A stretch of 22,652 nucleotides of DNA from a virus. The translations under genes were made by a program, and so were the position numbers. The notes beneath the pieces were generated by a model. The model ran no database searches and had not been told where the DNA came from. It worked only from the letters and a program-made list of their open reading frames with translations. This document shows, piece by piece, positions 1 to 22,163 of the stretch (positions within the stretch are counted from its first letter, which is position 1; the number at the start of each line of letters is the position of its first letter). Location of the stretch: positions 1-22,652 of the IMG/VR virus record IMGVR_UViG_3300027777_000164; one strand, written 5' to 3'.

Positions 1-2488
1 TAGCGCCCGGCGTTGTGGTACCGATACCAACGTTTCCGGCAAAATAACCACCATTGTTTAACGATGAAAAAACACCACTACTACTAAAAGTAAAATATGA
101 ACTGCCAGCTGTACCATAAGCTTTTATGCCGACGTTTCCAGCTCCAGCGTCATAAAGATAATGACCTGAACCACCACCATTGGTACCAATTAGATAACCT
201 GTACCAGATCTTGTAATTCCATTAATGTCAAGAAGTGCAACAGTGCTAGGTGTTGTTCCTATACCAATATTTCCTAATGTATTATAAGTTATTACCGACC
301 CACCATAAACACTATCCTTTAAATATGTTATACCGCTATTACGATACAGGTATGCATAGCCTGTCGTTGCTTGATCATTGATGTAGAGTGTGCCATTGAG
401 ACCAACATTTTGTGAAGCTTGAATAGTTCCTGTAACATCAAGCGCGTAAGCAGGGTTATTTTTAAGGATACCAACATTACCGTTGAAGTAACTGGGTGCA
501 TTAGCTGTAACACCGTTGGTTGTCGTACCAGGTAATGAAGCTGTCCCTGTAGATACTGTTAAGCCGCCATTAGATACAGTAAGACCACCATTTGAAACTG
601 TTAAACCACTACTGACAGTAGCACCACCTTGTAAAGAAGCTGTACCACTTGATACCGTAAGACCACCAGCAGTAACAGTCGCACCGCTATTAACTGTAAG
701 CGAACCGAGTGTCGCTGTATCTGATGCACTTAACGTACCAGCAACAGTCAATTTTGAGTTAGGTGTCGTAGTACCGATACCAATATTACTACCACTTACA
801 ACCATTCTAACAAGTGTACCATCGTAAACGTTGAATGTACCTGCAGTGCTATCAGTATATAGGGTGTAGTTTTTTGCAGATGTTGCTAAAACAAGATTAG
901 AGTTACTACCGGCGTTAGGTGAGTTAACTGTCAAAAAGGCACCGTTAAATTGGCCGCTACCACCGAATGTAGCGCCGTTATTTGTACTAAGAGTCCCATT
1001 TATATACGCGTTAGCTATAGTACTGAGATTATTAATGTATGTTGTATTTGGGTTAGTAGCTGTAATGTTACTACCTAATACAAATGCGTTATTTGCTGTT
1101 ACATTATTAGCACTACCACCGGCAATGAATGAATAAACACCACTATTAGTATTTTTATAACCACCAACTACTATACTACCGTTATTTGATACACAATTTG
1201 CATTACCACCGAGAATACTTGCACTACCACCGCCTGTTGATATGCAATTATTCTGTCCACCGCCAATGTGTGAAAAATTACCGTAAGCAGATAAACCTAA
1301 ACCACCTACAATACTTGAATACGCATTACCGGTTTGTGTAGCATTAAAAGCACCGCCGACAATTACCGAACAGTTAGCGCTATTAACGTTATTCTTACCA
1401 CCACCAACGTTTGAATAAGTTCCAGAAGCTGTATTATTACCTTTAATAGGTATAAGACTGTTATTTGCGTTTTGCGTATAAGTGGCCGCCGAAGCTGATG
1501 TAATACTAGTCCACCCTGCACTATAGGTTTGAACTGTTGTATATGTATTATACCAAGAAGCAGAATTATTAAAAGTATTTGTATAGTTGCTATTCCAGTT
1601 ACCACTATTTGCTGTTAATGTTGTGTAGCTATTGTTCCAATTAGCACTATTTGCTGTTAATGTTGTATAGCTATTATTCCAGTTAGCTGAAGTGTTATTA
1701 ACTGATGTGTAGGTATTTTGCCAATTACCGCTAACGTTGGTTAAAGCTGTATATGTAACCCATGTACCTGAGTTTGCTGTTAGTGTACTATACGAACTAT
1801 TCCAGTTTGCAGAGGTATTATTAACAGATGTAAATACGTTGTTCCAACTCGCCGAGGTATTATTAACAGATGTAAATACGTTGTTCCAGCTCGCTGATGT
1901 ATTGTAGACTGATGTATATACATTACTCCACTGATTACTATTACCCGTACTAGCAAAAACACTATTTAAAGCTGTAATATTATTTGAAGCAAAGATATTA
2001 TTAGTACTTGAAAGGTTATTAACAAACGTAATATTTACAGCAGACTTAGCTACAATATTTGAACCTAATATAAAGGAATTATTACCGGTAAGTGTATTAT
2101 TTAAACCACCAAAAATAATTAAATTTGAACCAGAAAGTGTGTTATTTTGGCCACCAAAAATTATTGAAAAATTACTACCTGAGAGTATCGAGTTATTGAC
2201 ACTATAAACAGGGACAATTAAAGAACTATTTGAGCTATATGTTGTAAACGGAATAGCAGTTTGCGGGAAACTTAAAGTGAATAAAGCTGACGTTGCCCAT
2301 GTTGTTGTATACGGTCCATAATAGTTACCTGTAGATTTATCAACGTAGTAATCACCAGATAATACAGGATATGATGACGCTCCTGTTGTTGCTGAACCTG
2401 TCCCAGACCAGATTTGACTACCCCTTGTGCCAATACACAGTGCTGTTATTGCGGGTAGATTTAGTGAAAGGGTTGCTGCAATACTCAT
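1..2488 (-). CDS. Repeat-rich phage fibre/adhesin protein, C-terminus beyond the window
   Basis: An open minus-strand frame runs uninterrupted from ATG at 2488 to the left edge (at least 829 codons; it begins MSIAATLSLNLPAITALC). I see, in order: a unique N-terminus; a block of GGxNNTLSG repeats; a stretch of 14-residue repeats of the type WNNVFTSVNNTSAS (about residues 175-335); YadA-head-like repeats with ASGxYSxIxGG (about 350-470); a NIGIGTTTPNSKLTV motif near residue 570; a low-complexity GGLTVSNG run; and two or three further GNVGIGTTTP-type motifs. GIGTTTP-type motifs are common in tail fibres and large adhesins, often before a C-terminal chaperone domain, which would lie outside this window. 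The role is probably receptor binding or a distal virion fibre. An ATAAATA late motif lies just upstream (2501-2508). The start is supported by that spacing, as no SD is visible. Confidence 0.8.
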   Translation of the reverse strand, partial: MSIAATLSLNLPAITALCIGTRGSQIWSGTGSATTGASSYPVLSGDYYVDKSTGNYYGPYTTTWATSALFTLSFPQTAIPFTTYSSNSSLIVPVYSVNNSILSGSNFSIIFGGQNNTLSGSNLIIFGGLNNTLTGNNSFILGSNIVAKSAVNITFVNNLSSTNNIFASNNITALNSVFASTGNSNQWSNVYTSVYNTSASWNNVFTSVNNTSASWNNVFTSVNNTSANWNSSYSTLTANSGTWVTYTALTNVSGNWQNTYTSVNNTSANWNNSYTTLTANSANWNNSYTTLTANSGNWNSNYTNTFNNSASWYNTYTTVQTYSAGWTSITSASAATYTQNANNSLIPIKGNNTASGTYSNVGGGKNNVNSANCSVIVGGAFNATQTGNAYSSIVGGLGLSAYGNFSHIGGGQNNCISTGGGSASILGGNANCVSNNGSIVVGGYKNTNSGVYSFIAGGSANNVTANNAFVLGSNITATNPNTTYINNLSTIANAYINGTLSTNNGATFGGSGQFNGAFLTVNSPNAGSNSNLVLATSAKNYTLYTDSTAGTFNVYDGTLVRMVVSGSNIGIGTTTPNSKLTVAGTLSASDTATLGSLTVNSGATVTAGGLTVSSGTASLQGGATVSSGLTVSNGGLTVSNGGLTVSTGTASLPGTTTNGVTANAPSYFNGNVGILKNNPAYALDVTGTIQASQNVGLNGTLYINDQATTGYAYLYRNSGITYLKDSVYGGSVITYNTLGNIGIGTTPSTVALLDINGITRSGTGYLIGTNGGGSGHYLYDAGAGNVGIKAYGTAGSSYFTFSSSGVFSSLNNGGYFAGNVGIGTTTPGA
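1813..1896 (-). repeat. Tandem 42-nt direct repeat inside the fibre gene
   Basis: Two nearly identical 42-nt units lie head to tail here. They encode the 14-residue unit WNNVFTSVNNTSAS. More diverged copies of the same 14-residue period extend over about 1480-1960. The near identity at DNA level suggests recent duplication or gene conversion. Confidence 0.75.
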
Positions 2489-2500
2489 ATATGACAATGT

Positions 2501-2508
2501 TATTTATT
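2501..2508 (-). promoter_or_regulatory. Late-type promoter AATAAATA for the partial fibre gene
   Basis: AATAAATA reads on the minus strand at 2508-2501. Using the tmRNA-calibrated rule (start 5 nt after the motif), RNA would begin at 2495, giving a 7-nt leader before ATG 2488. Confidence 0.55.
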
Positions 2509-2543
2509 CAAAATAACAAAATTCTCAGAAGCTTTATTAAAGC

Positions 2544-3557
2544 TTAGTGCGGTGTAATAATGACGTAATTGTCACCTGACTGGTATGGTGCACCAACAGA
2601 TTGTGACTGTGATGGTGTTGGATTGACGATTACGAGCGGGTTCGTTGTAAGAGCAGGATTTGTTGTATTTGCATAAGGATTATAACCGTCGTATGTATCA
2701 ATAGCAGAGAGAGTATCACCATAACCGAATATAGGCGGTGTATTTAGATATAGGAGATTTGCACTTAATGATGCAGTATCTACAGTATAGGAATATGTAT
2801 ATGGTGAAGTTCCTGTAGAAGATGTTATAACACCATTTATATTAAAATTTTTAATTTTGAATGTTGTATTTGTAGAGAGGCCCGTTGTAAATGCTAAACC
2901 ACACCATAATGATGAAGGAAAAAAGAGCTGTTTTGCACTGAGATAAGGGTTATTTGTAATAGAATTATTGTATAATGAAACAGAGTAGTTAAGATAATTA
3001 GTAAAGTATATATCACCTATATTTTTTGCGTCGACAATAATTCTACTACCGTAATCTGTTAATCGAATTCTTACTCTTTTAAAGGTTGGTATACCAGATG
3101 ATAATTGTTGATATAAACTCCACGGCTGTACACCAGGTATATTGTTTAAGTTCGATGTTTGTGTAATAAAATTATAATTACTACCCTGATCTGCTCTCAA
3201 TGTTATTGAGTTAGGTGTTAAGCTAGTAGATCCAGCACTCAAATATAAACTACTACCATAATTCCCTGTAATATCAAATCCTATACCTAATATCCCTTGA
3301 CTGATACCTGAATAACCTGAACTACCGTCAGCTGTAAATACATTTGTTGTACCTGCATAACCTAATCCGGGTCCAGGTCCACCATTAATGATATTTTGTG
3401 CGAATGTATTGGTAAAAAATACACAAAACCCTTCGCTACCTGTTTTTGCAGGTCCGTAACAGGCATAATCAAAAGATATTACGATGTCTTTTGATGTATC
3501 AAGAAATTGCGTAAAAATAATACTACTAGCTATAGCGTTAGCAGGTAAAGTATACAT
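2544..3557 (-). CDS. L-type-lectin-like (concanavalin A-like fold) putative receptor-binding protein
   Basis: The protein is 337 aa. The first two thirds resemble an L-type lectin/ConA-like beta-sandwich: FDYACYGP, then GSEGFCVFFTN, then GPGPGLGYAG, then GISQGILGIGFD. This is the same order as the carbohydrate-binding core of legume-type lectins (DGxAFxL, PGxxLGY, NGIxxVEFD). The C-terminal third (about 250-337) is Pro/Thr/Ser-rich and looks like a linker or attachment segment. It lies between two long fibre genes on the same strand (21 nt to the 1497-aa gene), so a glycan-binding role on the virion is a reasonable inference. TATAAACA on the minus strand (3571-3564) would start RNA 1 nt before this ATG. 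The fold assignment is from motif order only; metal-binding residues were not verified. Confidence 0.65.
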   Translation of the reverse strand: MYTLPANAIASSIIFTQFLDTSKDIVISFDYACYGPAKTGSEGFCVFFTNTFAQNIINGGPGPGLGYAGTTNVFTADGSSGYSGISQGILGIGFDITGNYGSSLYLSAGSTSLTPNSITLRADQGSNYNFITQTSNLNNIPGVQPWSLYQQLSSGIPTFKRVRIRLTDYGSRIIVDAKNIGDIYFTNYLNYSVSLYNNSITNNPYLSAKQLFFPSSLWCGLAFTTGLSTNTTFKIKNFNINGVITSSTGTSPYTYSYTVDTASLSANLLYLNTPPIFGYGDTLSAIDTYDGYNPYANTTNPALTTNPLVIVNPTPSQSQSVGAPYQSGDNYVIITPH

Positions 3558-3563
3558 AGTCGT

Positions 3564-3571
3564 TGTTTATA
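3564..3571 (-). promoter_or_regulatory. Late-type promoter TATAAACA for the lectin-like gene
   Basis: TATAAACA on the minus strand (one change from TATAAATA) is followed by ACGAC and then T-ATG. The predicted start is 3558, a 1-nt leader, so the mRNA would be essentially leaderless. Confidence 0.5.
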
Positions 3572-3578
3572 CTTAACA

Positions 3579-6500
3579 TTACGCTGATACATCGCCACTT
3601 ATTACCCAACCAGCGTAAGCACCGGTATAAACAATAGTTGCTACAGAATACTGCTTAGTTGTTCTATAATAGCTGTTAGCTTGATTGATTGTTACACCAG
3701 CTGATGCACTTGAAAGTGAAACCCTTGCTGTACTAAGCTGAGTAACATATGTTCTAAATCCAGCAGGGTATGTGATACCAGACGATGGTAAAGCTGTAAG
3801 ACCAACATTACTTGTTGAAGCAATTGTACCGCTATTATCAGATAATTGAATTGTATAAGTTGTACCGCTTAATACTGTAATTGTTGTGCCACCAAAAATA
3901 TTACCACCAACGGTAAGATTACCTGTTATATTAACATTTCCTTGCGCACTTACGTTGTTTGTATATGTGTAGTTAGCAGCTGTAGCACTTAAACCAGTAC
4001 CTAAGATAAAAGTATTTGGATAAGCTGTGTAGTTTGCTGAACCACCAGCAATGAATGAATACGTGCCTGAGGATGTATTGTTGTAACCACCTACGATAGC
4101 GTTATACGAATTTGAAGCATTATTACATCTACCACCGCCGATGTAGGAATAAACACCGGAAGCTGTATTACCGAGACCACCACCGATAACCGCCCAAGCA
4201 CTTAAAGCTTGGTTACCAGAACCACCATTAATATTTGAAGCTAATCCAGTAGCAAGATTGCACTGACCACCGGCAATAACTGAATATTGACCTGAAGAAG
4301 TATTGTTACCAGAAGCAGGTACTATTGCTGTTGTAACCCCGCCAGTAGTGTATGGAAAATTCGATGTTGATGCTGCAGTGGCAAAAGACGATAGACTATT
4401 TGACAACGATATAACAGCTGTATTAATAGTATTAATACAGGTATTAATTGTATTGACACAATTATTAAATGTTGTCGATGTAGTAATATTGTTTAAATTA
4501 CTACCATCACCGAAGTACGTTGTAGCAAATACAGCACCAGGTGTTGAAAGATTGTTTACGTAAGTAAAATTGACTTGTCCAGCACATAGATTGGAACCTA
4601 AAATGAAAGTATTTCTAAATCCATTCGTTGTATTGCTACAACCACCGGCGATAAAGGAATATACGCCCGAAGCTGTATTACATAAACCACCATCGACAAT
4701 TGAATAATTACCAGAAGCTGTATTTGATCTTCCGTTATTGATTACTGAGAATTGACCACTTGCGTTATTACCGCCCTGAACTGGTTGTACAGAATATGTA
4801 CCGGGTCCAACTACATAAACTGTATTACCACCAACGTTTCTTAAATTCGAACCATCACCGTAAATTGCTGCAGCGCTAATATTACCTGTTGTTGTAATTG
4901 TTGTACCGCAAATAGATCCATTAGCTACAATTCCATTTGTGTAGGTTGTATTAGGTTGAGTTGCAACAATATTTGAACCAAGAACAAATGAATTTATAAC
5001 ATCAAAGTTGATGTAATTTGCTGAACCACCGGCTATGAATGAATTACAACCGACGATTGTATTACAACATCCACCAGCTATTGTTGAATTGGCACCTTGT
5101 ACAATATTACTAACACCACCAGCAACAACAGAACCGTTGCCTTGAACTGTGTTGTAGAAACCACCAGCTATTGTTGCGTAGACATTGCTAATAGTATTAT
5201 AATATCCGCCATTAATATTAGAAAAAGAACCAGTAGTGATATTATTGCACTGACCACCTTCAATGATATTGAATCTACCAGATACATTATTACAATTACC
5301 GCCACCAACAACAGTATATGGACCTGAGGCTGTATTACCAAATCCGCCACCAATTACTGCGCCTGTACCGGAACTATTATTACCACATCCACCATTAATT
5401 ACAGAAAATTGACTTGTAATAACGTTATTAGTACCACCCTCAACATTTGAATTACAACCAGTAACAGTATTGCTACCATACGTTGGTACAATTGAAGACA
5501 GGGCTGAGTTTGCTGTATAACCAATAGCTTTATTATAGAGATTACCAGTTGCTGAAATATCACCAACAACAGTTAACGCAACGTTTGGTGTAGTTGTTCC
5601 AATACCAATATTACCCTGACTTGTTACTCTAAAACGCTCACAAGCACTAAGTGTACCACCGGTATGGAAGAGAAGACTATTTGCCGTAGCTGTACCAATC
5701 GCTAGGTTACCGCCATTTATAAACAAATAACCGTCATTTGCAGCTGCAACACCATAGGCTGAATTACTATAAGCACTATTGTTAATACCAAGATTAACGA
5801 AATTTGATGAACTACCGCCATTATCAGCTGTTGCAACAAAATCTGTTGAAGCGTTAGTTCCAGCACATAAGTTTTGACCTGCAAATTGTAGATATGTATT
5901 AGAGCAAGTAGTGAATTGACCGACAGAATTTCCAAATGTAGGTGTTAGACCGAGAGGGTTTATAGCAAGATAGCCAGTATTAGCACTTAAAGTATTGATA
6001 CCCCCTTGTGAGGAAAGATTGTTTACTATTGTATAATTGGATACAGTTGAGGTGATGTTTGAACCAACTACAAATGCATTATTACCGGTAACATTATTAT
6101 TTTGACCACCTAGCACACTTGAGCAATTGCCAGAAACGACGTTATTATACCCACCAGTAATATTTGATGCACTACCTGAAACAGTATTAAGACATCCACC
6201 GAGTATTACCGCTTGACTTGTACTGGCGGTATTACCATAACCACCGCCAATTACTGAATAATTGCCTGAAGCTGTGTTACCATTACCACCGCCAATAAAT
6301 GAACTTGCACCGGTTGCATTATTATTACCGCCAGCTAGAATACCCGAATTGTTACCAATAGATTGATTACCGTAACCACCAGCGACTATTGAATAGTTAC
6401 CAGAAGCGTTATTACCATAACCACCTAAATCTGCCGCCCAATTACCTAAGGTGGTAATACCATAAGGATTTAATAAATTACCAATACCTGATACACTAGG

Positions 6501-8072
6501 AACTAATACAAGAACTTGTGCTGAAGCTTGTGCGTATGTTGTGTTATTATATGTCGGGTTATTTGTTGCACTTGTCGCAGCGACATAATTTGCTGCAGCA
6601 ACTGTACTATTCCAGCTAGCACTATTTGTATTAACTGTTGTATATGTATTGTTCCAAGCTGCACTGTTACTATTAACATTTGTATAAACATTATTACCAA
6701 TAGTATTAACAAGATTTGAACCATCTCCAAAGAATTTACCGTAAACAGTACCTTGTGAGCTAAGGTTATTTACATATACGAAATTAGCTTGTGAAGCACT
6801 GAGATTTGAACCAAGAATAAAGGTATTAGCAAACCCACTATCATTATTTGCAGATCCTGCTGCAATAAATGACGTATTACCTGAGACAATATTGTTGTAA
6901 CCACCGGCAATGTGTGAATAACTGCCTGCAGCTATGGAGCTTCTACCACCATCAATACTTGAATAGGTACCTGATGCTGTGTTATTCAATCCACCACCGA
7001 TAACGGCACCTGAGCCCGAGGCGATATTGCCAAGACCACCTACAACAACAGATGTATAATTAGTAGCGTAGTTTGACTGACCACCTACAACAGTCGAACA
7101 ATTTCCTGATGCAATATTTGCACACCCGCCAGCAACATTTGATGTCTGACCGGTAGCTGCATTTAATTGACCACCAGCGATATTTGAATAAAGCCCTGAT
7201 GCAATATTTTGATAACCACCGAGAACGGTATTAAAGGCTGATAGGGTCTGGTTACCATAACCACCACCAATATTGGAGTAGATACCAGATGCTAAATTAT
7301 TACAACCACCGACTATATTTGCGTAACAACCAGTTGCATTATTACCAGAGCCTGTTCCAATAAAAGTATAGCCACCGGAAGCGTTATTTGATGCACCGCC
7401 ACCTATGTTTGAATAATTTCCAGATGCAATATTACTCAAGCCACCTACAATACTTGAATAGTTATTTGTAACTTGGTTGCTATTACCGCCTAAAATTGAA
7501 TTATAATTACCAGATGCAGTGCTATTACCAAAATTTGGTGTAATCAGAGTACCGCTTAATATAAAGGTCTGACTTGATAGTTTAAGGTATGTTGTACTGA
7601 ATGAGGATGCTAGTGAGTAGGCTGTATTCCAGTTAGCAAAACCAGGCCCGTAAAGTGTTCCAAGAACACTCAAGCTACTTACGACTGTAGTATTTGTTGT
7701 AAAATCGTAAATTGGTACAGAGCCGTTTGTATATGGTGGATCTCCAAGATAGTTATTAAAGGCATCGTATTGGAGTCGAGATACAGGAATAGCGTAATTT
7801 ACACCGCTTAATTGTACAATGAGAGAATTTGTTGGTACAAAACTTGCATTCGCAGATAATACCGGCTGTGGTATGCTAATATTTGAGAGTGTATAGTAAT
7901 TTGTAAAAATTGAACCTGAGGCACTAAGATTACCTTGGATAACAAAATCTCCCTGAAACGGCTCAGCGTATGAAGCAATAGGATCTGTTGCAGAATCAGG
8001 ATAACCAGCTGTCGGGTTAGAGTGATGATTCTTTCTATGAAGCTTATTATGGAACCGGGCGTTGTCGGACAT
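3579..8072 (-). CDS. Giant repeat-built tail fibre protein with YadA-head-like beta-roll repeats
   Basis: The protein is 1497 aa. Most of it is 14-16-residue repeats of the form NNASGxYSxIxGG, arranged in about five blocks (roughly residues 180-420, 545-700, 880-1075, 1115-1195, 1290-1390). Most blocks are closed by a recurring module NTFILGSNLSA...YVNNLSSQG, often followed by FGDGSNL. A GNIGIGTTTPNVALTV motif occurs near residue 820. The last ~100 residues form a distinct non-repeat domain ending GAYAGWVISGDVSA. The repeats resemble the left-handed beta-roll of YadA-type trimeric adhesins, so a trimeric fibre is inferred. Many YSNI positions carry Cys instead (GCYANIVGGC), which is odd for an extracellular fibre. 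It shares modules with the partial fibre gene at 1-2488. A late motif lies 9 nt upstream of the ATG. Confidence 0.85.
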   Translation of the reverse strand: MSDNARFHNKLHRKNHHSNPTAGYPDSATDPIASYAEPFQGDFVIQGNLSASGSIFTNYYTLSNISIPQPVLSANASFVPTNSLIVQLSGVNYAIPVSRLQYDAFNNYLGDPPYTNGSVPIYDFTTNTTVVSSLSVLGTLYGPGFANWNTAYSLASSFSTTYLKLSSQTFILSGTLITPNFGNSTASGNYNSILGGNSNQVTNNYSSIVGGLSNIASGNYSNIGGGASNNASGGYTFIGTGSGNNATGCYANIVGGCNNLASGIYSNIGGGYGNQTLSAFNTVLGGYQNIASGLYSNIAGGQLNAATGQTSNVAGGCANIASGNCSTVVGGQSNYATNYTSVVVGGLGNIASGSGAVIGGGLNNTASGTYSSIDGGRSSIAAGSYSHIAGGYNNIVSGNTSFIAAGSANNDSGFANTFILGSNLSASQANFVYVNNLSSQGTVYGKFFGDGSNLVNTIGNNVYTNVNSNSAAWNNTYTTVNTNSASWNSTVAAANYVAATSATNNPTYNNTTYAQASAQVLVLVPSVSGIGNLLNPYGITTLGNWAADLGGYGNNASGNYSIVAGGYGNQSIGNNSGILAGGNNNATGASSFIGGGNGNTASGNYSVIGGGYGNTASTSQAVILGGCLNTVSGSASNITGGYNNVVSGNCSSVLGGQNNNVTGNNAFVVGSNITSTVSNYTIVNNLSSQGGINTLSANTGYLAINPLGLTPTFGNSVGQFTTCSNTYLQFAGQNLCAGTNASTDFVATADNGGSSSNFVNLGINNSAYSNSAYGVAAANDGYLFINGGNLAIGTATANSLLFHTGGTLSACERFRVTSQGNIGIGTTTPNVALTVVGDISATGNLYNKAIGYTANSALSSIVPTYGSNTVTGCNSNVEGGTNNVITSQFSVINGGCGNNSSGTGAVIGGGFGNTASGPYTVVGGGNCNNVSGRFNIIEGGQCNNITTGSFSNINGGYYNTISNVYATIAGGFYNTVQGNGSVVAGGVSNIVQGANSTIAGGCCNTIVGCNSFIAGGSANYINFDVINSFVLGSNIVATQPNTTYTNGIVANGSICGTTITTTGNISAAAIYGDGSNLRNVGGNTVYVVGPGTYSVQPVQGGNNASGQFSVINNGRSNTASGNYSIVDGGLCNTASGVYSFIAGGCSNTTNGFRNTFILGSNLCAGQVNFTYVNNLSTPGAVFATTYFGDGSNLNNITTSTTFNNCVNTINTCINTINTAVISLSNSLSSFATAASTSNFPYTTGGVTTAIVPASGNNTSSGQYSVIAGGQCNLATGLASNINGGSGNQALSAWAVIGGGLGNTASGVYSYIGGGRCNNASNSYNAIVGGYNNTSSGTYSFIAGGSANYTAYPNTFILGTGLSATAANYTYTNNVSAQGNVNITGNLTVGGNIFGGTTITVLSGTTYTIQLSDNSGTIASTSNVGLTALPSSGITYPAGFRTYVTQLSTARVSLSSASAGVTINQANSYYRTTKQYSVATIVYTGAYAGWVISGDVSA

Positions 8073-17059: not shown

Positions 17060-17082
17060 AATAGAATGTCCAATAGGACAAA

Positions 17083-17097
17083 TGATCTTTGATAGTA
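17083..17097 (+). repeat. 15-nt element shared by the tmRNA and large-RNA leaders, copy 1
   Basis: TGATCTTTGATAGTA is identical to 18075-18089. Each copy follows a TTGnnn/TATATT promoter and ends about 12 nt (here) or 6 nt (copy 2) before the RNA body. Confidence 0.7.
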
Positions 17098-17108: not shown

Positions 17109-17554
17109 GGGGGCGTACTGGTTTCGACTTATACTCGGAGTTTGTACAGCATGCAGTAGTTAATCTGTGGCTACTTAAAAACGGATTAAAACATAAATGC
17201 AAAGACTCAAGTCAGCGCAATCCTTGCTAAGTTCAAGAAGGCAGTAAACACAATTACAGAGTTTTGTCTCTGTGATGAGGTTGCTCCTTTAGCACTCGCA
17301 GCCTAAGGAACCAGAAGCAAATCCTATTAAGCTTTTGGAAAAATAATAGGTTAAAGAAGGTCTTGTGATTCTCAAAAAATAAGTGCAAGGAGTTATGCAG
17401 AGCTCTTCCATCTGCATAGGTAGGACTATAAACATAGATAGGTTGATAACGCCTTGTTACCTAGAGTCAACGAAAGTACGAAGCTTATCTAAGCATGTAG
17501 AAGTATAAATAAAAAAGTATAAACACAGGGGTTCGACTCCCCTCGCCTCCACCA
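17109..17554 (+). ncRNA. ssrA: tmRNA (transfer-messenger RNA) with a 35-residue tag
   Basis: The RNA is 446 nt. The 5' GGGGGCG pairs with the 3' CGCCTCC, followed by ACCA. A TTTCGAC element lies near the 5' end, and the T-arm is GGGG-TTCGACT-CCCC. PK1 is GTAG/CTAC with TTAATC/GATTAA, and PK2 is CCAGAAGC/GCTTTTGG with CCTATT/AATAGG. The resume codon is GCA at 17199 (position 91; position 90 in E. coli). The tag frame starts AKTQVSAILAKF, ends DEVAPLALAA and stops at TAA 17304-17306, which lies in a TCCTT/AAGGA hairpin (H5). The tag is 35 aa against the usual ~10, with an extra ACAGAG/CTCTGT hairpin within its frame and a Cys-Leu-Cys. It rescues stalled ribosomes; whether the phage tag directs proteolysis is unknown, though the ALAA end suggests it does. 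Confidence 0.93.
17504..17511 (+). promoter_or_regulatory. Internal TATAAATA inside the tmRNA 3' part
   Basis: A perfect late motif followed by AAAAA then G17517, with TATAAACA close behind (17518-17525). It could start RNA for the downstream tRNAs, or may be only part of the tmRNA H2 region. Confidence 0.35.
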
Positions 17555-17810: not shown

Positions 17811-17941
17811 ATAGAAGTCGGCAAATTCCTCTCCATAATTGATCACGAGAAATTATGTGATGAAACCGGCTCATCGTAAGTCATAACAAAACTGATACAT
17901 AATGAGGGACGCTTCAAGTTGTCAGGACAAAAAGACTTACA
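17811..17941 (+). ncRNA. Candidate small structured RNA (~130 nt)
   Basis: This gap between tRNA-Trp and tRNA-Met has no ORF but forms two helical domains. AGTCGG (17816-17821) pairs with CCGGCT (17866-17871) and encloses CATAATT/AATTATG. GTAAGTC (17876-17882) pairs with GACTTAC (17934-17940) and encloses a TTGT-CAGG-ACAA hairpin. It is not a tRNA cloverleaf. The class is unknown; a processing leader is also possible. Confidence 0.45.
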
Positions 17942-17950
17942 TTAATTTAA

Positions 17951-18023
17951 CGCAGGATGGACAAACGGTTAAGTCGTTGCGCTCATAACGCAAAGATTGC
18001 GGGTTCGATTCCCGCTCCTGCCA
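17951..18023 (+). tRNA. tRNA-Met (CAT), initiator-like acceptor
   Basis: Stem pairs 2-7 are GCAGGA/TCCTGC; position 1 is C facing C72, an unpaired 1-72 as in initiator tRNAs. Anticodon arm TTGCG-CTCATAA-CGCAA, T-arm GCGGG-TTCGATT-CCCGC. The anticodon stem lacks the three G-C pairs of initiators, so it could be elongator Met or a lysidine-modified Ile tRNA. The 3' CCA triplet coincides with positions 71-73, not with an added tail. Confidence 0.85.
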
Positions 18024-18031
18024 TTTTCTAG

Positions 18032-18060
18032 TTGCCACTTCCTTATTCAGGCATTATATT
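18032..18060 (+). promoter_or_regulatory. Host-type promoter TTGCCA-17-TATATT of the large RNA
   Basis: TTGCCA 18032-18037 and TATATT 18055-18060, start predicted near 18067. It has the same -10 as the tmRNA promoter and a similar run after it. Confidence 0.6.
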
Positions 18061-18074
18061 AAAAGAATAAGAAT

Positions 18075-18089
18075 TGATCTTTGATAGTA
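18075..18089 (+). repeat. 15-nt element shared by the tmRNA and large-RNA leaders, copy 2
   Basis: TGATCTTTGATAGTA, identical to 17083-17097; here it is followed by CAATTTGACTAG, which begins the closing helix of domain 1. It may mark a 5' processing site or an unusual promoter element. Confidence 0.7.
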
Positions 18090-18647
18090 CAATTTGACTA
18101 GGCGCAGGTCTTGAAAGCTAAAAGACTCCCGCGATAGGTGATAGCGAAGCATTCGGCCGAGTGAACGTGTAGCCTGTAAGATAAACCTCCGCGAAAGCGA
18201 ATGAGATTTTCTAGTCATACAAATTTGATTACTGCGTATAGTTCTCGGTAGTAGCAATACTAGTCCGAAGCCGCGGGTAAGAGCGAAAGCTCTAAACTTC
18301 CTAGCTCCGATAGGCCAGTAATCATTACAATTAAGTTCCCGCGTTGTAGGTATAATCTGCGGGAGAGATACGTTGAGTTGTCTGCTGGTAAGTTAGTAGA
18401 CGTATCTTAAGAGGGGGAGCCAAAAACTTACATACAGCTTTGATCCCTTGCTTTATTAAACACAGACTGGACGGCGCGCTGGCTCCATGCCGGTACCCGT
18501 TGAGGAAAGAACAAAATCCGGAACAAAAGCTTTTCAACTACCACAAATTTCTTTAGTAATGCTACCAGTTGCCGGTCTCAAGTCCGGAAAGGAATCGCTA
18601 TCCCTAAAATGCAGAGAGCAAAGAAAAGAAAGCAGAGTTCGAACTCA

Positions 18648-18680
18648 CCCCTATTATCCTGATCAGGTAGTAGGGGTTTT
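18648..18680 (+). terminator. Intrinsic terminator of the large RNA
   Basis: CCCCTA/TAGGGG outer pairs and CCTGA/TCAGG inner pairs, with a small bulge, followed by TTTT. Confidence 0.8.
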
Positions 18681-18878: not shown

Positions 18879-19979
18879 ATGAGTACAACAACACTAGATA
18901 AGTTCGTCGCTAAGAGCAACGATATTCGTCAGACGCTGCAAGGTTATACCCTCGCTCCTCTGGATATTGATAACATCGAAAAGAGTGGTAACACTTTTTC
19001 GTATAATGGTAATCGTTTGGCTGGTCCCTCTCTCAAGAGTCTCCTTGGAGTTCTTGGCGTTAAGGATCAGCTGGTCAATGAGATTAAGGATGATAGTTCT
19101 CAGTGGTCTCCTCTTCATAATGCTCTTACGAACATTAAGCAGAACAAGCGCGTTACAGCGGTTGTCAATAACCATAACCAGGAGATTGTTAATCTCTTTG
19201 ATACTCCTATTAAGGAAGAGCGTCAAATTGATCTCTCTAACGGTCTTCGTTATACTGAGGCATTCTTGAAGGATACAGAGAATAATCTCGAGCTTAGGGA
19301 CTTTAACTTCGATCCTGTCAATATTAGTATTGGGATTAATTTCAAGAATCCTGATTCCGATATCGATGTCTTCGGAGATGGTAAGGATATGTGGAAGGGT
19401 GGTTTTGGTATGAACTTCTCGATGAATAAGTCGCAGTTCTACCCTTATCTTCTTCGCCTAGTCTGCTCTAACGGAATGACTGCAGTTCATCGCATGGCCC
19501 AGCGCTTTATTGATAGTGCTGACTTCAGTCAGAAGACGTTTGACACTCAGGTTCGTAAGTTCTTGACTGGTGATGCACTTCGTCAGGAGATCTCTGTTAG
19601 CGCTACCCGTCTTCGTGACAATAACGCCTCTCTCCGGGAGTTCAATGCAGCTCGTAGTCTTGTTATGAAGTATGATAAGGAGCTTGCTGTAAGTGCTTTC
19701 TCCGATCACGAGATTAGGAATCGTTACAAGTCTGTGGGTATTGACCTTAATAAGTCAAAAGGGACTCGTTGGATGTCTACGGCTAACTCTAACGTCAACG
19801 CATACGATCTCTTTAATAGGATCACTAACGTTGCCACGCATAGTGTTACTGATGAGAACATTGCTTTTAGGATGGAGCTTAACAGGCTTGCGTCGGAGAT
19901 GTTCTTCAAGGGACCGGATTTCTCAGCAATTGCACCGGATCCATTCCGTGAGGTTGCATCAGCTAATCTCGAGGCCTAA
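18879..19979 (+). CDS. DUF932-like phage/plasmid protein
   Basis: The protein is 366 aa. The central part (FGDGKDMWKGGFGMNFSMNKSQFYPYLLRLVCSNGM, split here as GKDMWKGGFGMN and LRLVCSNGM) resembles the DUF932 family of phage and plasmid proteins, where a conserved (V)CsNG motif precedes a helical C-terminal half. The function of that family is unresolved. Codon choice is CGT/CTT/AAG-rich and more GC-rich than the surrounding genes, like the 10588 and 11543 genes, which suggests high expression early in infection. Its promoter is host-type and gives only a very short leader. A CCCTCGG/CCGAGGG hairpin lies after the stop. Confidence 0.55.
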   Translation: MSTTTLDKFVAKSNDIRQTLQGYTLAPLDIDNIEKSGNTFSYNGNRLAGPSLKSLLGVLGVKDQLVNEIKDDSSQWSPLHNALTNIKQNKRVTAVVNNHNQEIVNLFDTPIKEERQIDLSNGLRYTEAFLKDTENNLELRDFNFDPVNISIGINFKNPDSDIDVFGDGKDMWKGGFGMNFSMNKSQFYPYLLRLVCSNGMTAVHRMAQRFIDSADFSQKTFDTQVRKFLTGDALRQEISVSATRLRDNNASLREFNAARSLVMKYDKELAVSAFSDHEIRNRYKSVGIDLNKSKGTRWMSTANSNVNAYDLFNRITNVATHSVTDENIAFRMELNRLASEMFFKGPDFSAIAPDPFREVASANLEA

Positions 19980-19997: not shown

Positions 19998-20033
19998 CCC
20001 TCGGTGCCTCCTAACAATGCATACTTCCGAGGG
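19998..20033 (+). terminator. Hairpin CCCTCGG/CCGAGGG, possible terminator
   Basis: Seven perfect pairs with a 22-nt loop, followed by TGTTCTTTG, a weak T-tract, just before tRNA-Gly. It could instead be an RNA-processing stem. Confidence 0.5.
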
Positions 20034-20041
20034 TGTTCTTT

Positions 20042-20117
20042 GCGGGTGTAGCTCAGTTGGTAGAGCACAACTTTGCCAAAGTTGACGTCGCCAGTTCGAA
20101 CCTGGTCACCCGCTCCA
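20042..20117 (+). tRNA. tRNA-Gly (GCC)
   Basis: Acceptor GCGGGTG/CACCCGC, D-arm GCTC/GAGC with GG, anticodon arm CAACT-TTGCCAA-AGTTG, T-arm GCCAG-TTCGAAC-CTGGT, TCCA end encoded. A canonical tRNA. Confidence 0.96.
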
Positions 20118-20147
20118 ATAAAGTAGTAAATACACTTTCGATTAGAC

Positions 20148-20153
20148 TAAATA
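20148..20153 (+). promoter_or_regulatory. Late-type promoter CTAAATA placed for a leaderless GTG
   Basis: TTAGACTAAATA, exactly 5 nt (ATAGT), then GTG 20159. This settles the start of the HNH gene. Confidence 0.55.
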
Positions 20154-20158
20154 ATAGT

Positions 20159-20677
20159 GTGAATTTAATCGATAAAATATGCCCTGTATGCAATACAATA
20201 TATCAGGTTAACCGCAATCATAAATATCAAAAAACTGTTTGCTCAAAAAGTTGTTCACATAGTTTTTATGTAAGACGAAAAACAGTTAGAGTAAAGACAT
20301 TTATATGTCAAACATGCGGTAAAGAAGATAAGAGATTATACGGTAGCAGTAACAAGTTTTGCAGTGTAGCTTGCAAAACCACCTATAACCAACAAGATGT
20401 AATTAATCGTTTTTATCGTGGTGAGATACATGATAGACACACGCTACGTAGAGCGTTAAAGGCTGAACGGGGTTATAATTGTAGCCAATGTAGTATATCT
20501 GATTGGAATAAAAAACCTATAACGTTACAAGTAAATCATATAGATGGTAACTGCACGAATAATATGCCTGAAAATTTAGAATTGATTTGCCCTAACTGTC
20601 ACTCGCAAACAGATACGTTCGGTGCTAAAAATAAAGGCAACGGCCGTAAAGCAAGAGGCTTGCCACTTCATTATTGA
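20159..20677 (+). CDS. HNH endonuclease with N-terminal zinc-finger pairs
   Basis: The protein is 172 aa from GTG 20159. The open frame extends upstream into tRNA-Gly, giving a misleading AGVAQLVEH-type N-terminus, so that extension is rejected. Two Cys4 units come first (C8/C11/C28/C32 and C50/C53/C68/C72), then CxxC (108/111) and the HNH core: NHIDGN (H127), ENLELICPNCHSQT (N139, C144, C147, H148). The tail GAKNKGNGRKARG is basic. HNH proteins of this type are common mobile homing-like endonucleases in phage tRNA clusters; here it lies between tRNA-Gly and tRNA-Pro. A broken relative lies after tRNA-Tyr at 15192. Confidence 0.85.
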   Translation: MNLIDKICPVCNTIYQVNRNHKYQKTVCSKSCSHSFYVRRKTVRVKTFICQTCGKEDKRLYGSSNKFCSVACKTTYNQQDVINRFYRGEIHDRHTLRRALKAERGYNCSQCSISDWNKKPITLQVNHIDGNCTNNMPENLELICPNCHSQTDTFGAKNKGNGRKARGLPLHY

Positions 20678-21677: not shown

Positions 21678-22163
21678 ATGACAAACACAATAACACCATA
21701 CACGATTGGCAGGGTCATTCCTGCTACAGCGACGGGATTCAGCCATCTCCCAGCGTTGTTTAACGATAAGTGGCTAACCGATGTCATTAAGGACTTCGAT
21801 AAAGCATTTGATATTCCAAATGCAGTCTATCCTTATAACATCGTATCAGAAACCGATTCAGACGGAAATCCAGTCACCTACTACATCGAAGTAGCATTGG
21901 CTGGAGTAGGAAAGGATAATATCAACGTATCGGTCAAGGAGGGTAAGCTCGTGATCGCTGTTGATAAGGAAGAGGTCGAATATGATGAGACAGTAGTCTT
22001 CCATCGTAAAGGCATTAGTCGTAGAAAGGGACAATTGTCCTTCTCTCTTAATGACAATACGGACGTTAAGAACATCTCATCAACATACACAGACGGGTTA
22101 CTACGAGTTAAGGTCCCGACAGTGAAACCGGAGGTACACAATATCAGTATCGAGGTTAAATAA
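21678..22163 (+). CDS. hsp20: Small heat-shock protein Hsp20/IbpA family
   Basis: The protein is 161 aa. An N-terminal arm (1-50, with YPYNIV at its end) leads to the alpha-crystallin domain: YYIEVALAGVGKDNINVSV, GKLVIAVDKEE, VVFHRKGISRR, LSFSLNDNTDVKNISSTYTDGLLRVKVP. This matches the IbpA-like pattern (IEVALAG, RGIA.R.F, GLL.V). A C-terminal IxI-type anchor may be ISIEV. It acts as an ATP-independent chaperone. Hsp20 genes are a hallmark of T4-like marine phages, where they may protect virion proteins during assembly. It has a consensus late promoter, a 62-nt leader and SD AAAGGAG 7 nt before the ATG. Confidence 0.92.
   Translation: MTNTITPYTIGRVIPATATGFSHLPALFNDKWLTDVIKDFDKAFDIPNAVYPYNIVSETDSDGNPVTYYIEVALAGVGKDNINVSVKEGKLVIAVDKEEVEYDETVVFHRKGISRRKGQLSFSLNDNTDVKNISSTYTDGLLRVKVPTVKPEVHNISIEVK

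Follow-up and report, generated by a model that had tools for sequence, protein, structure and literature searches.

Phages make very large assemblies of RNA only, as illustrated by the cage-forming GOLLD and ROOL RNAs, and to our knowledge nobody can say what such assemblies are for or how many times they originated. ROOL (RF03087) is a large ornate RNA of phages and plasmids, found near tRNA islands, which assembles from RNA alone by means of kissing loops and contains no ribozyme. GOLLD (RF02032), which has a variable 5' and a constant 3' part, is located in phage or prophage tRNA islands. It can carry tRNAs and adjoins HNH genes and tRNA clusters (PMC12286853, PMC6582537); in the case of GOLLD env-38, a Met-tRNA is encoded upstream (PMC12286853). 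OLE RNA (RF01071) forms its homodimer through a symmetric kissing loop whose palindrome switches, and such switching has served as evidence for homomeric kissing loops in both OLE L9.3 and GOLLD L21a (PMC12286853).

We analyzed a window of 22,652 nt (positions 1 to 22,652 of the IMG/VR virus record IMGVR_UViG_3300027777_000164) from an uncultured phage of freshwater type, in which a first-pass annotation had placed, at 18067-18680, a noncoding RNA of ~600 nt that it took for either a divergent ROOL/GOLLD-type RNA or a new class. With GOLLD, this RNA shares its place in a phage tRNA island, a tRNA adjacent to it or, in some relatives, inside it (tRNA-Met, as for env-38), a variable 5' half followed by a constant 3' part, a palindrome-switching loop (PMC12286853) and a nearby HNH gene (here at 20033-20677; PMC6582537). 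Such traits speak for a strongly diverged GOLLD or ROOL member, a reading that we nevertheless regard as extremely improbable in view of the model searches. The GOLLD model gave no match in the window up to an E-value of 10 and no more than chance-level scores in relatives (at best 7.5 bits, against 150), with a positive control for ROOL only. The ROOL model matched 0 of 14 records, while recovering the ROOL of plasmid pMP118 (E-value 1e-29, 130 bits), and a covariance model of the present core (R1) in turn found no match in the pMP118 ROOL. Furthermore, the core is different and shorter (about 200 nt, vs. model lengths of 416 and 574), the twister ribozyme at the 3' end of the RNA is in neither model, and the boxA-like leader and the wholesale exchange of domains also distinguish the RNA from GOLLD. 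Covariance models of other Rfam families detected nothing beyond tRNA and twister-P1; OLE, in particular, has no Rfam match in this RNA. The option of a divergent ROOL or GOLLD is thus abandoned, while the likeness of setting holds; as to a new class, no known family fits the RNA as a whole, except that its 3' end matches twister-P1.

Setting and Limits of the Transcript

The RNA lies between a tRNA-Met (17951-18023) and a protein gene starting at 18879, in an island that contains a tmRNA (17109-17554) and eleven tRNAs identified by ARAGORN. The promoter and the terminator of the first-pass annotation were both recovered (table 1). Because promoter matches of equal quality are no more common than in shuffled sequences (5 observed, 4.6 expected), the case for this promoter is its conservation in homologues. 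No open reading frame above 68 amino acids occurs within 18067-18680 and, unlike in a protein-coding gene, no frame remains open throughout the core homologues, which agrees with the noncoding status proposed earlier. When folded as a single sequence, the region is only mildly more stable than 20 shuffles (z = -1.9), and helices can therefore not be trusted from one sequence. The perfect helices with GAAA loops listed initially fare accordingly: the conserved helices are real by comparison, whereas single-fold support is weak and the GAAA tetraloops, such as GCGAAAGC in domains C and D, are present but peripheral and without conservation.

A boxA-like element follows the promoter in the leaders of both the noncoding RNA and the tmRNA in many contigs. 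In the tmRNA leader it is preceded by a hairpin whose sequence varies but which is kept in several relatives, a layout that resembles the boxB-boxA order of rRNA leaders (PMC10250234, PMC4807359). As in rrn leaders, the element (GATCTTTRA) stands 3' of the promoter and, for the tmRNA, behind a short hairpin; unlike them, it fronts a phage tmRNA and a noncoding RNA, for which its role is a prediction. By analogy with rrn and nut boxA (PMC10250234), it may act in antitermination: host Nus factors recruited at boxA would let the polymerase read through a long untranslated RNA. A stretch recalling 23S rRNA, UUUAUUAAACACAG, had no match in E. coli genomes and was discarded.

Table 1. Features of the Noncoding RNA and Its Surroundings (Window Coordinates)
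Feature	Position	Strand	Remarks
boxA-like element, tmRNA leader	17083-17092	+	TGATCTTTGA, after promoter; 5-bp hairpin TGTCCaataGGACA (17067-17080) before it
Module S	17815-17943	+	Conserved second structured RNA of the form ACAAAA-stem-ACAAAA; flanked by tRNA-Trp and tRNA-Met; z = -3.2
Sigma-70-like promoter	18032-18060	+	TTGCCA-17-TATATT; sequence kept in homologues; transcription probably starts near 18067
boxA-like element, RNA leader	18075-18084	+	TGATCTTTGA (GATCTTTAACA in L108 and L031), just 3' of promoter
Domain C	18094-18217	+	Closed by UUGAC(UAG)...(CUA)GUCA; closing helix switched to GACCG/CGGUC in homologues
GGCC hairpin loop in domain C	18155-18158	+	A-GUGCAC-A palindrome instead in L108, L031 and L156 (suggestive only)
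Domain D, optional	18224-18325	+	Closing strands GAUUACUG/CAGUAAUC
Core domain E	18336-18536	+	~200 nt; 21 distinct homologues
H1 of core	18336-43/18358-65	+	
PK1 of core	18345-50/18427-32	+	
H2 of core	18366-74/18399-407	+	
PL of core	18380-85/18462-67	+	Long-range, pseudoknot with H2
H3 of core	18412-15/18445-48	+	
H5 of core	18471-74/18497-500	+	
H6 of core	18504-09/18530-35	+	
Palindrome in H6 loop	18517-18522	+	UCCGGA, ACAAAA on each side; proposed homomeric kissing loop
Variant type-P1 twister ribozyme	18548-18626	+	RF03160 match and homologues
Twister P1	18548-54/18620-26	+	
Predicted twister cleavage	between U18557 and A18558	+	
Twister P4	18572-74/18585-87	+	
Twister L4	18575-84	+	
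Twister T1	18577-79/18616-18	+	
Intrinsic terminator	18647-18680	+	12-pair stem 18647-18677 and T run; unrelated terminators instead in some homologues (L025, L046, L088)

A Core Structure Conserved among Uncultured Phages

By using the neighboring protein (18879-19979), we identified IMG/VR contigs containing the same region, and further homologues were obtained with DNA patterns derived from conserved pieces and with model R1. These searches yielded 21 distinct core versions, many of the homologues being closely related, with one copy per contig even at about 200 kb. No relative was detected among 50,697 phage records, nor was a convincing one found in 84,980 prokaryote species (one genome each, two patterns); all known copies are therefore from uncultured viruses (IMG/VR). 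The first bacterial pattern gave no match, and the Burkholderiales contig retrieved by the second, which is GC rich and has neither a core-model match nor a tRNA, was attributed to chance. Matches of L108 in cultured phages corresponded to its tRNA-Met and to weak chance similarities, and a weak R1 match in L014 falls in an apparent coding region.

The alignment of 19 distinct core sequences was scored against a structure of eight helices, two pseudoknots among them, with 42 pairs in total. Pairing is observed in 92.5% of cells, compared with 80.1% after column shuffling and 31-47% with partners slid; in 22 of the 42 pairs, both partners have changed. Covariation, on which the first-pass annotation had made its claim depend, reaches a score of 0.440 vs. 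0.227 for shuffles, values that are not probabilities, as the shuffles ignore relatedness; the structure, moreover, was chosen on the same 19 sequences. Our argument rests on the slid control and on the variety of strand pairs, which amounts to 9 distinct pairs for H1, 13 for H2, 12 for H3 and 11 for H6. Helices read by hand are 94-100% paired, vs. 58-87% when partners are exchanged. A GGAGCC/GGCUCC pairing within the core was rejected, as it fails in clade B. Two cores found later with the model (L034 and L092) both agree with the structure. L092, the most divergent, keeps PL, H5, H6 and the palindrome and has lost the H3 hairpin together with the strand in the loop of H1, a joint loss that is expected if these two elements pair as PK1. 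Together with the lack of a coding frame, these comparative helices bear out the proposal of a large structured noncoding RNA in a phage tRNA/tmRNA island.

A Variant Twister Ribozyme at the 3' End

The RF03160 (type-P1 twister) model matches 18553-18622 with 31.1 bits (E-value 1.7e-4 over all Rfam and 8e-7 over the contig), which is below the gathering cut-off of 67.2, an operational and not a structural limit for a model that has no pseudoknots. Of 10 relatives tested, 8 also have the match, as do L108 and L046, below the cut-off throughout. A twister pattern returned 115 matches, many of them chance-like, and we retained only the matches in which AAA..GC.GAG stood at the right place in the 3' strand. 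In all 21 twisters, whose position is constant, P1, P2, P4, the conserved L4 and the U-A (or C-A) cleavage site are present; P1 and P4 are complementary throughout, in 14 and 13 distinct versions, respectively. In twisters, T1 and T2 link L4 to L1 and L2, and cleavage takes place at U-A (PMC6154101). T1 is fully paired (3/3) in 21 of 21 sequences, as GAG:CUC or GGG:CUC, GAG:CUC having matching substitutions on its two strands relative to the GGG:CCC of the Rfam consensus, whereas the T2 strands, which resemble AC:GU instead of the consensus GC:GC, are invariant within this set. In agreement with the T1 change, L4 is GUCUCAAGUC and L1 GAGAG, compared with GUCCCAAGCC and GAGGG in type-P1 twister. 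The low scores may come from changes in the pseudoknots, interactions that the model leaves out of its scoring. The variant has the P1, P2, P4, L4 CAAG, U-A site, T1 and optional P3/P5 inserts of RF03160, and differs from it by its altered L4 and L1, its sub-threshold score and its place in a large structured RNA, of which it forms the 3' domain. This variant, also below threshold in Rfam, is found in unrelated phage contexts as well (L034, L066, L078, L096, L107 and L129), where P1 and P4 are again complementary, and the group with L4 GUCUCAAGUC deserves its own model.

Cleavage at the predicted site would release an RNA of ~490 nt, ending with a 2',3'-cyclic phosphate and freed from the terminator hairpin. 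Because the predicted ribozyme lies at the 3' end, the mature RNA probably spans 18067-18557, which revises the ~600 nt first proposed. A match to a known small-RNA class, which had been named as an argument against the original reading, is thus limited to this 3'-terminal domain. Two other recurrent elements were noticed nearby: the structured element CCCTGTG...CTCGACGG...GCAGGGAC recurs 3' of the twister in L108 (about 1210-1330), L031, L103, L107 and L078, and the L108 copy had no Rfam match; GACTCGT..GATACC..GGTGAG..ACGT(TA)AA is found between twister and terminator in L025, L034, L046, L088, L092 and L096, with no convincing Rfam match for the copies of L046 and L092.

Exchange of Modules between Leader and Ribozyme

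In the window, the order is leader, domain C, domain D, core E, twister and terminator. Among relatives, tRNA-Met, domains C and D, a hairpin module X and the ~200-nt core are swapped, all between boxA and twister. We found, for example, leader, C, D, E and twister (L103); leader, C, E and twister (L135); leader, tRNA-Met, X, E and twister (L088); leader, tRNA-Met, C and twister (L031); leader, X and twister (L089); C and E with no twister (L034); and E alone, between tRNAs (L012, L139 and L142). The tRNA-Met is inside the transcript in L016, L046, L108, L031 and L088. In domain C, 8 of 16 predicted pairs are altered on both sides. Domain D is missing in L002-L009 and near-identical in L025, L039, L046 and L103. 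Core and twister are mutually dispensable, because each is found without the other: the core lacks both twister and boxA in clade B (L012, L139, L142, L143, L150 and L151) and in L034, and the twister occurs without a core in L031, L089 and L107. Module S, which has no Rfam match, follows the core in clade B phages and directly precedes the twister in L075. In L010 (4668-4890), the 5' half of module S is joined to the 3' half of core H6 at their shared ACAAAA and followed by a twister, an arrangement that looks like recombination between modules.

Since modules occur in almost any combination (L031, L089, S plus twister in L075, L034, L012), the locus might be polycistronic, each module (tRNA-Met, S, C, D, E and X) being a small RNA in its own right. 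In that case boxA and twister would simply mark where a tRNA-type operon begins and ends, the twister insulating its cargo from the terminator. We consider this somewhat unlikely: the short AAAUUU-type linkers that connect the modules show no processing sites, and domain D, in the six contigs found to carry it, always lies between C and E.

A Self-Complementary Loop

All 21 cores have a perfect palindrome at the center of the H6 loop, for which the expectation by chance is about 0.016 per hexamer; its versions are UCCGGA, ACUAGU, CCUAGG, UCUAGA or CUCUAGAG. Its two central letters switch together between CG and UA; being adjacent, they cannot pair with each other in one molecule. No constant second copy of the hexamer exists within the transcript among homologues, so that pairing in cis is unlikely; the UCCGGA of the twister in the window, considered as a cis partner, is missing from most homologues. 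These observations suggest that copies of the RNA self-associate through the H6 loop. In module S, the same ACAAAA flanks enclose an ordinary stem formed within the molecule, which suggests that the core may build in trans the motif that module S builds in cis.

The palindrome could also act at the DNA level, as a site for a dimeric protein or an endonuclease that, for example, drives module exchange. UCCGGA, CCUAGG, UCUAGA and ACUAGU all fit N-C-(CG/TA)-G-N, module swapping is evident and the island contains HNH genes. The palindrome is, however, always centered in a covarying RNA hairpin, where the single-stranded ACAAAA on either side of it is conserved, and module junctions are elsewhere, the L010 chimera excepted, which makes a DNA site very unlikely.

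Phage tRNA/tmRNA islands are commonly interpreted as a response to the cleavage of tRNAs in the host. With a tmRNA and many tRNAs in the same island, the RNA might accordingly be a decoy or antidefense RNA that, for instance, titrates nucleases or translation-stress factors of the infected host, dimerization being incidental. This appears rather improbable, given that we identified nothing similar to a known nuclease target and that the RNA has no known protein partner.

Probable Nature of the RNA

We favor, with a probability of about 0.7, a phage-encoded, modular, self-trimming structured RNA in which the UCCGGA loops of two cores would pair, giving a homodimer or the building block of a larger RNA assembly. 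Arguments to the contrary are the twister score, which stays below the cut-off, and the occurrence of core and twister without each other. On present sequence evidence, it is best read as a new class of phage RNA, outside GOLLD and ROOL, self-trimming and probably self-associating, which probably works in the manner of the self-associating ornate RNAs. Its most likely role would be architectural, as a multimer produced in large amounts while infection proceeds, like GOLLD and ROOL yet without kinship to them. Whether as a cage or as a scaffold, and with which cargo, is a matter of speculation. More tentatively, and at less than even odds, the RNA may represent a third, unrelated class of phage RNAs that form RNA-only multimers, mature themselves by a built-in twister, exchange domains with one another and in some cases carry a tRNA as their cargo. 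If true, a nonhomologous RNA with the same palindrome switching in the same type of island would be an independent case, by which the meaning of the setting that they share (tRNAs, tmRNA, HNH gene) could be tested. Twister ribozymes would, moreover, acquire a concrete natural job, the 3'-end excision of a structured phage RNA. Both claims are directly testable, because the sequence predicts the exact residues, U18557 and A18558 for cleavage and the UCCGGA hexamer for association. The twister, the boxA-like leader, the module swapping and the palindromic loop had all been overlooked in the first-pass annotation.

Elsewhere in the window, the minus strand of 2-8072 contains open reading frames of 832+, 337 and 1497 amino acids, none of which matches Pfam, the 1497-amino acid frame having no PHROG match either, and a gene for an Hsp20-type small heat-shock protein is located at 21678-22163, inside the tRNA island.
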